Of a stretch of 64,000 bases of DNA, positions 7,342-8,120 are shown one piece after another (positions within the stretch are counted from its first letter, which is position 1; each line of letters opens with the position of its first letter). The notes below the pieces were generated by a model. The model ran no database searches and had not been told where the DNA came from. It saw only the letters and a list, made by a program, of their open reading frames with translations. The translations under genes were made by a program, and so were the position numbers. This DNA is from Halpernia humi (GTDB lineage Bacteria; Bacteroidota; Bacteroidia; Flavobacteriales; Weeksellaceae). The DNA lies in NCBI RefSeq assembly GCF_900108025.1, contig NZ_FNUS01000004.1, positions 124,001-188,000 on the forward strand, written 5' to 3'.

Positions 7342-7363
7342 GTAGAAACGCGATTTATCGCGT
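7342..7363. repeat. REP palindrome 1
   Basis: A 22-bp element beginning GTAGAAACGCGATTTATCGC, containing a palindromic GCGAT..ATCGC core. Copies occur at 7495-7516 and 7782-7803 in the opposite orientation, with a degenerate one at 8095-8120. Together they surround and invade the neighbouring transposase gene, the expected relation between REPs and their RAYT. Confidence 0.8.
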
Positions 7364-7471
7364 TTCAATTAAATAAGATTGAGTTTCAATTAAAACAAAC
7401 AAGATCACCTTTTATTAAATAACGATTCAGCGCATTTTGATTTTAATTAAATTAGATATTAAACAAAATTA

Positions 7472-7516
7472 ACCGAAAACGCGATGAACCGAAAACGCGA
7501 TGAATCGCGTTTCTAC
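7472..7516. repeat. REP palindrome 2 with partial duplicate
   Basis: Two tandem copies of ACCGAAAACGCGATGAA-like sequence. The second continues into TCGCGTTTCTAC and so forms a full REP in inverse orientation to the one at 7342. It lies just beyond the 3' end of the transposase gene. The intergenic space 7296-7518 contains only these REPs. Confidence 0.75.
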
Positions 7517-7518
7517 GG

Positions 7519-8082
7519 TTATTTTAACGAATCATTATCCCAATTTTCTGGATTATTTTCTATATATTTTTGAATATTTTCAAATGATTTGCTATTTCTT
7601 ATAATATGATCATAAAATCTCGGTTGCCATTTAAAACCAGACGAAATTTTATTGATTTCAAATGTACATCTTCCTTTATACCACCTAATTATTGTGGAAA
7701 TATTTTGATGCAACATTGGATTTTTAATTCCTGTGATTCCGCCTTTTTTTTGAATTACTTTTTCTTCTGATTCTATTTGACACGCGATAAATCGCGTTTC
7801 TACGGGTTTATTATTTATGATTAAAATCCCGTGAATGTGATTGGGCATTATGACGAAATTTCCCAATTCCACAAACGGAAATTGAACAGGAATTTCTAAC
7901 CAAATGTTTTGTGCTATTAATCCTAAATCATTTAAAATCATTTCGCCATTTACTACTTTCCCGAAATAATTCTCTCGATTTGCGGTGCAAATGGTTAAAA
8001 AATAAGCGCCGTTTGCAGAATAATCCCAAGATTGCAAACGTACTGATGAAATTCGATATTTATTTCGAAATTTTTTATCCAT
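7519..8082 (-). CDS. REP-associated tyrosine transposase (RAYT, Y1/HUH family)
   Basis: A 187-aa HUH-type single-strand transposase related to IS200/IS605 TnpA and thought to mobilise REP sequences. The two-histidine metal site is in MPNHIHGIL (about residues 80-88). The N-terminal YFLTICTANRENYFG strand is typical, and the C-terminal part IIRNSKSFENIQKYIENNP carries the usual RAYT signature. One REP palindrome (7782-7803) lies inside the reading frame and encodes the residues PVETRFIAC. It does not break the frame. Confidence 0.85.
   Translation of the reverse strand: MDKKFRNKYRISSVRLQSWDYSANGAYFLTICTANRENYFGKVVNGEMILNDLGLIAQNIWLEIPVQFPFVELGNFVIMPNHIHGILIINNKPVETRFIACQIESEEKVIQKKGGITGIKNPMLHQNISTIIRWYKGRCTFEINKISSGFKWQPRFYDHIIRNSKSFENIQKYIENNPENWDNDSLK
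7782..7803. repeat. REP palindrome 3 inside the RAYT gene
   Basis: The reverse complement is identical to the 22-bp element at 7342-7363. It lies in frame in the middle of the transposase coding sequence. Confidence 0.8.
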
Positions 8083-8094
8083 AATATTTACCGT

Positions 8095-8120
8095 TGAGAC
8101 GCGATAAATAGCATCTCTAC
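8095..8120. repeat. Degenerate REP 4
   Basis: GAGACGCGATAAATAGCATC resembles the other REPs but the right arm has changed. It is immediately upstream of the transposase start, so the gene is bracketed by REPs. Confidence 0.55.

Follow-up and report, generated by a model that had tools for sequence, protein, structure and literature searches.

The RAYT locus and its REP copies

The window, a stretch of 64,000 nt of the Halpernia humi genome, contains on its reverse strand a gene for a REP-associated tyrosine transposase (RAYT) with REP copies both inside and around it. The features of the locus are the following:

7519..8082, reverse strand: RAYT of the Y1/HUH type, 187 aa (from the ORF, PF01797, NF047646 and Foldseek)
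7702..7815, reverse strand: coding stretch of the variable loop, residues 90-127, between the HUH strand (82-89) and the next helix (128-144) (from the AlphaFold2 model and the alignment)
7782..7803, reverse strand: internal REP in the reading frame, inside the codons of PVETRFIAC (7780-7806) and with a GTAG foot on the coding strand
7490..7516, reverse strand: 3' REP with its foot two bases past the stop codon (C3:131496)
7342..7367, forward strand: outer 3' REP in opposite orientation, with the same 22 nt as the internal copy (C3:131344)
8096..8120, reverse strand: decayed REP just upstream of the start codon, read by eye, with a partial CGCGAT core at 8100

The translation of the ORF contains NNKPVETRFIACQIE and matches PF01797 with 27.9 bits, above the cut-off of 23; the HUH motif and the catalytic Tyr of a Y1_Tnp domain are both present. 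The match to NF047646 has an E value of 2e-15, yet its 56.9 bits lie below the curated cut-off of 80, and on the genome it is split in two (131549-131707 and 131798-132019), with most of the REP falling between the two parts. The closest solved relative is 4er8, TnpAREP with a REP hairpin (sequence E 6.4e-4, Foldseek fold E 5.4e-7), and H82, H84 and Y173 are invariant in an alignment of 34 sequences. NHIH, WQ and YIENNP correspond to the motif row of subclass 2.4 in PMC6006769. The gene is flanked by REPs, namely two 3' copies (7490-7516 and 7342-7367) and, on the 5' side, only the decayed one at 8096-8120, while the copy at 7782-7803 lies in frame between HUH and Tyr. Judged by its motifs and its in-frame REP, the gene fits the published RAYT group 4, or TnpA-REP subclass 2.4.

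Positions 7342-7363 read GTAGAAACGCGATTTATCGCGT, and 7782-7803 is the exact reverse complement of these 22 nt. On the RAYT coding strand, 7780-7806 reads CCC-GTAGAAACGCGATTTATCGCGT-GT and encodes PVETRFIAC (residues 93-101), the 22 nt of the internal REP covering V94 to A100 and the first base of C101. Sequence and translation thus confirm what the sequence-only reading had stated, an in-frame 22-bp copy of the nearby REP within the RAYT gene. At the 3' REP, a 16-bp unit (accgaaaacgcgatga) occurs twice in tandem at 7472-7503, a half-REP duplication.

The sequence-only reading had proposed looking for more copies in the genome. A search of the whole 3.12-Mb genome with the 19-nt pattern AGAAACGCGATWWATCGCG, allowing up to two mismatches, gave 11 strand matches that group into seven sites, the internal one included. 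The reversed control pattern had no match across the same 3.12 Mb, and the identity of the REPs is therefore not due to chance. Three of the seven sites belong to the RAYT locus (at about 7344, 7496 and 7778-7801 of the window). No ORF of at least 70 aa covers two of the four dispersed sites, and the other two reach into an ORF only at its stop end. At L088 and L092 of this genome (about 1500-1520), the GTAG foot of a dispersed REP supplies the TAG stop of the adjoining ORF. The genome holds five other Y1 matches, one of which (L099) gave no ORF and was left out; none of the four that were read carries the ACGCGAT/ATCGCGT REP core, one having an AT-rich 8-bp hairpin and three no hairpin. A single other genome of the genus was examined, and its match is interrupted by a stop.

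Position of the internal REP in the protein

The AlphaFold2 model of the RAYT, built from 34 sequences, has a mean pLDDT of 82, with 118 of the 187 residues at 90 or above and residues 95-118 below 50. Strands 71-78 and 82-89 surround the HUH motif, after which no regular structure is predicted until about the helix at 128-144. In the alignment, this loop is the main region of length variation and ranges among homologs from almost nothing to more than 100 residues. In the predicted structure, the internal REP accordingly occupies a disordered, low-confidence loop that follows the HUH strand.

Among the relatives, L026 and L028 form an orthologous pair with 96% mean column identity and a single in-frame loop difference of 45 bp; the 45 extra bases in L028 hold a REP. 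Copies of this REP class (up to two mismatches) number zero in the L026 genome and four in that of L028, where the RAYT holds one and the other three lie in no ORF of 90 aa or more; both genomes are MAGs, so that the absence of copies may reflect incompleteness. The difference could equally be a precise loss, as the two further relatives found for polarising the pair have differing loops and leave gain and loss indistinguishable. Homologs were thus found to show the gap that an insertion predicts, in the form of this empty and filled pair and of a strongly length-variable loop. Together with the pLDDT below 50, they support the earlier suggestion of an insertion tolerated by a surface loop.

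REP hairpins in the genes of relatives

Relatives were collected in three sets: the best 80 of 84 relative-encoding stretches from a search of genome contigs; 29 loci from the window's family, in which 28 of 320 genomes match (its own among them) and the 27 others supplied the loci; and the best 30 loci from the genus of L006, where 59 of 398 genomes matched. Loci were dropped if no single ORF with PNHxH was found in them or if their first 150 nt duplicated those of another, which left 120 distinct ORFs (that of the window, 72 of the 80, 23 of the 29 and 24 of the 30). Hairpins of 7 bp or more whose foot reads GTRG or CYAC were counted as elements.

Such an element is present in 88 of the 120 RAYT ORFs, whereas the codon-shuffled control averages 1.55 of 120 and never exceeds 4; the threshold was widened after the data had been seen, and the control was redone for it. 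The stricter foot window and score used at first gave 78 of 120 (shuffled mean 1.0, maximum 4) and missed the RAYT of the window. By set, the positives amount to 59 of 72, 11 of 23 and 17 of 24, plus the RAYT of the window. The phylum could be read for 69 of the 72 loci of the first set, many of them MAGs, and each of the 12 phyla represented has at least one positive (Bacteroidota 36 of 46, Bacillota 5 of 7). The retrieval queries were RAYTs that contain a REP peptide, and a small bias toward REP-bearing relatives is therefore possible; the peptide patterns of the contig search excluded that peptide.

An exact match of at least 15 nt to the own flank occurs in 54 of the 120 ORFs. In 44 of the 88 positives, 15 nt or more of the element itself recur in the flank, as compared with 5 of 1276 draws of control stretches from the same ORFs. 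Neither a hairpin element nor a flank match was found in 26 of the 120 ORFs, which is an upper bound because L121, L126 and L161 hold REP-like stretches below the threshold. The copies in L163 and L164 are visibly decayed. Subclades of Flavobacterium have one core in common, which is often found in their flanks as well. No REP-less homolog with the same residues at the loop was seen among the loci read.

Density of REPs in and around RAYT genes

Positive ORFs carry one element or several, and the total over the 120 ORFs is 120: 107 on the C-terminal side of HUH, 12 at 30-60 residues ahead of it and one elsewhere. Densities were counted for the 101 of 120 loci with a placeable C-terminal motif. 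Approaching the gene from the 5' side, they rise from 0.01 elements per kb (701-1500 bp) through 0.21 and 1.14 to 2.04 (1-100 bp); inside the gene they are 0.41 in the N part, 6.32 in the loop and 0.47 in the C part; on the 3' side they fall from 2.32 (1-100 bp) through 0.61 and 0.08 to 0.03 (701-1500 bp). An element is present in the loop at 70 of the 101 loci, in the first 100 bp of the 5' side at 20 and in the first 100 bp of the 3' side at 21.

Neighboring ORFs of at least 100 aa hold just 0.12, 0.09 and 0.05 elements per kb at score thresholds of 10, 13 and 15, which disfavors a general invasion of coding genes by REPs. Flank copies of internal elements nevertheless reach such ORFs in 11 of 68 cases, although some of these ORFs may be spurious.

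For one REP class, 24 genomes were searched; 20 of them have sites, 81 in total, and 20 of the 81 are in the RAYT ORF. The 16 genomes with listed sites at the RAYT locus hold 74 sites in 68.9 Mb. The ORF contains 20 of these, and another 35 are no more than 2.5 kb away; the remaining 19 lie elsewhere, a number that includes by assumption three sites not listed individually. The eight genomes left out of this count hold seven sites (four with none, L019 with two, L023 with one, L030 with three and L051 with one), none of them in a RAYT ORF, one L019 site lying 49 bp from its RAYT. Five genomes (L006, L007, L008, L027 and L044) have exactly two sites in about 5 Mb at the stringency used: the gene holds the first, and the second lies 31-63 bp outside the matched stretch.

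Frame, strand and divergence

Depending on the frame, one and the same REP encodes VETRLIAS or RDAINRVST, and the third frame is closed by the TAG of its foot; the loop peptides of unrelated REP classes are themselves unrelated. The GTRG foot is in phase 0 in 52 cases and in phase 1 in 10. On a weakly resolved tree built from the loci of this analysis only (98 rows, 128 columns; 54 rows scored for phase), the phase changes at least 8 times and presence or absence at least 18 times. Among the 107 elements C-terminal to HUH, GTAG is found on the sense strand only in 33, on the antisense strand only in 30 and on both in 37, seven having no exact foot on either. A foot without strand preference and the use of both open frames fit a DNA element. 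These observations point toward an element at the level of DNA, gained or lost repeatedly in a loop that permits it, rather than toward a peptide with a function or an mRNA switch tied to one strand.

Divergence was measured in 17 mutual-nearest ortholog pairs, all with a core identity of at least 0.70. Changes affect 59 of 525 REP sites, 472 of 2831 sites in the rest of the loop and 571 of 2196 third positions of the core, so that REP sites diverge less than either (Fisher p 0.0014 and 3e-14, respectively, values that are too small because sites were treated as independent). A count over columns marked as REP in both partners gave 9 of 242, an underestimate for which the union count above was substituted. 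The pairing of internal REPs is 11.68 of 14 and that of flanking ones 11.02 (p 0.02), with p 0.17 for perfect stem length.

Symmetric paired changes that keep the palindrome were found in L155 and L027 relative to L006 and in L121 as compared with L124, and these also alter amino acids. Such changes may result from selection or from template switching between the hairpin arms. Unpaired changes and decayed copies occur too (L161, L163, L164). The lower divergence, together with pairing equal to or better than that of flanking copies, suggests more than passive persistence.

Origin and maintenance of the internal REP

The internal 22 bp are probably a genuine REP of this transposase's own family, lodged in the disordered loop of the RAYT. 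RAYTs of this group would work over short distances, on the REPs within and next to their gene. Any copy landing in the folded core or disrupting the frame would be lost, while loop copies would persist, protected against the majority of deletions by the frame of the downstream Tyr domain. The hairpin may be kept near-perfect by purifying selection for a cis-acting site or by template-switch repair over short distances, and the loop peptide itself is probably without function. Passive tolerance alone is insufficient, since it predicts at most the intergenic density, as opposed to the 6.32 per kb of the loop against 2.04 and 2.32 in the adjacent 100 bp. The excess may have three causes, gene-biased insertion, protection of in-frame copies from deletion and selection for a cis-site; we favor a mixture of the first two, with the third possible.

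That third cause leads to the strongest alternative, in which the internal REP is a selected cis-acting site and putative binding or nicking of the single-stranded REP DNA by the RAYT limits the enzyme's own expression or marks the element for copying. We consider this possible and well short of probable. It would account for a loop density about threefold that of the adjacent 100 bp, for the prevalence of loop over flank elements among the 101 loci, for the lower divergence of REP sites and for palindromes that are kept despite amino-acid change, and the unbiased strand fits a DNA site. A selected site is harder to reconcile with the up to 26 of 120 ORFs that carry neither element nor flank match, with decayed copies such as those of L163 and L164, and with the at least 18 changes of presence. 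A bolder version, which we hold still more tentatively, is that the group's principal REP is the in-gene copy and not a flanking one, that this copy is kept as DNA, and that the enzyme can act on or limit its own gene. In this version, the transposase's putative recognition site lies within its own coding sequence, and gene and site are therefore inseparable.

A single ancient insertion, inherited vertically and kept perfect and cognate by arm-to-arm template switching and exchange with flanking REPs, is improbable. In-ORF elements do extend across many phyla, the Flavobacterium subclades have one core in common that often recurs in their flanks, and the symmetric double changes fit arm-to-arm correction (a hairpin mechanism treated in PMC8794818, as far as its accessible text goes); this history is nevertheless opposed by the repeated changes of frame and presence on the tree, by REPs at two further places of the protein and by the empty ortholog L026. 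Self-regulation on the mRNA, the other possibility raised from the sequence, fares worse: a sense-strand hairpin that is bound by the RAYT or stalls ribosomes and so regulates translation is very doubtful. The internal REP as single-stranded RNA folds at -9.3 kcal/mol with a z of -3.15 in 38 nt, which would suit such a switch, and z is only -1.79 in a 76-nt context. In addition, the foot orientation is unbiased (33 sense, 30 antisense), and the inverted iREP is reported, in the accessible part of PMC8266576, to be inactive with one group 2 and one group 3 enzyme, so that a strand-specific RNA switch is disfavored. Selection of the encoded peptide as a part of the protein can practically be dismissed: phase 0, the VETRLIAS type, is the commoner, and against this the same REP is used in two frames, different REP classes yield different peptides and the loop has a low pLDDT.

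Relation to known systems

In-frame REP insertions between HUH and Tyr have been described for TnpA-REP subclass 2.4, which equals RAYT group 4 (Quentin et al., 2018; PMC6006769), and the accessible text of that paper calls a REP insertion inside the gene a unique feature of this subclass. Since the gene of the window fits subclass 2.4, its internal REP is a case of this known pattern. According to the same text, the likeness comprises the NH[IFV]H, WQ and YIxNNP motifs, flanking REPs, Bacteroidetes among the hosts and in-frame REPs in the variable domain between HUH and Tyr; the window copy differs from that description in having one GTAG foot instead of a double foot, and its genome in having only seven REP sites at the stringency used. 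Palindromic repeats in frame in proteins are also known from REPs in other ORFs and from Rickettsia palindromic elements (RPE), whose hosts, as far as PMC3733652 could be consulted, are other genes, whereas here the repeat lies in the gene of its own transposase. E. coli TnpAREP (4er8) and the REPtrons of PMC8266576 share the Y1/HUH fold, GTAG-foot hairpins and a gene delimited by REPs (PMC2817692), and belong, in the portions of these sources available, to groups 2 and 3 and not to group 4.

In-gene REP hairpins in most of the relatives examined are thus a pattern that is published but unexplained. No paper with density, frame, strand or empty-site data for in-gene REPs was found in a search that covered few subscription journals and not the supplements of PMC6006769. 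A group with a hairpin inside the gene bears directly on how REPs spread and why RAYTs persist. With the hairpin in the gene of its own enzyme and, in several genomes, only one further copy found, the group offers a two-part system for the study of insertion, autoregulation and retention.

REP-like sequences also occur at other places in and near these genes. REP-like peptides or hairpins lie about 60 residues after HUH in L119 and L120, and about 38-58 residues before it in L016-L018, L025, L070 and L074. L018 carries an in-frame tandem REP array with a 63-bp period in the gene, and arrays with steps of about 127 and 53 bp lie roughly 200-700 bp upstream. In L106, a REP-encoded NAINRVST is in frame directly 5' of the RAYT start, with no REP detected in the loop. 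The loop of L178 contains a half-REP four times in frame (RVETLRVETLRVETLRVETLQ), as a tandem of a 15-bp unit.
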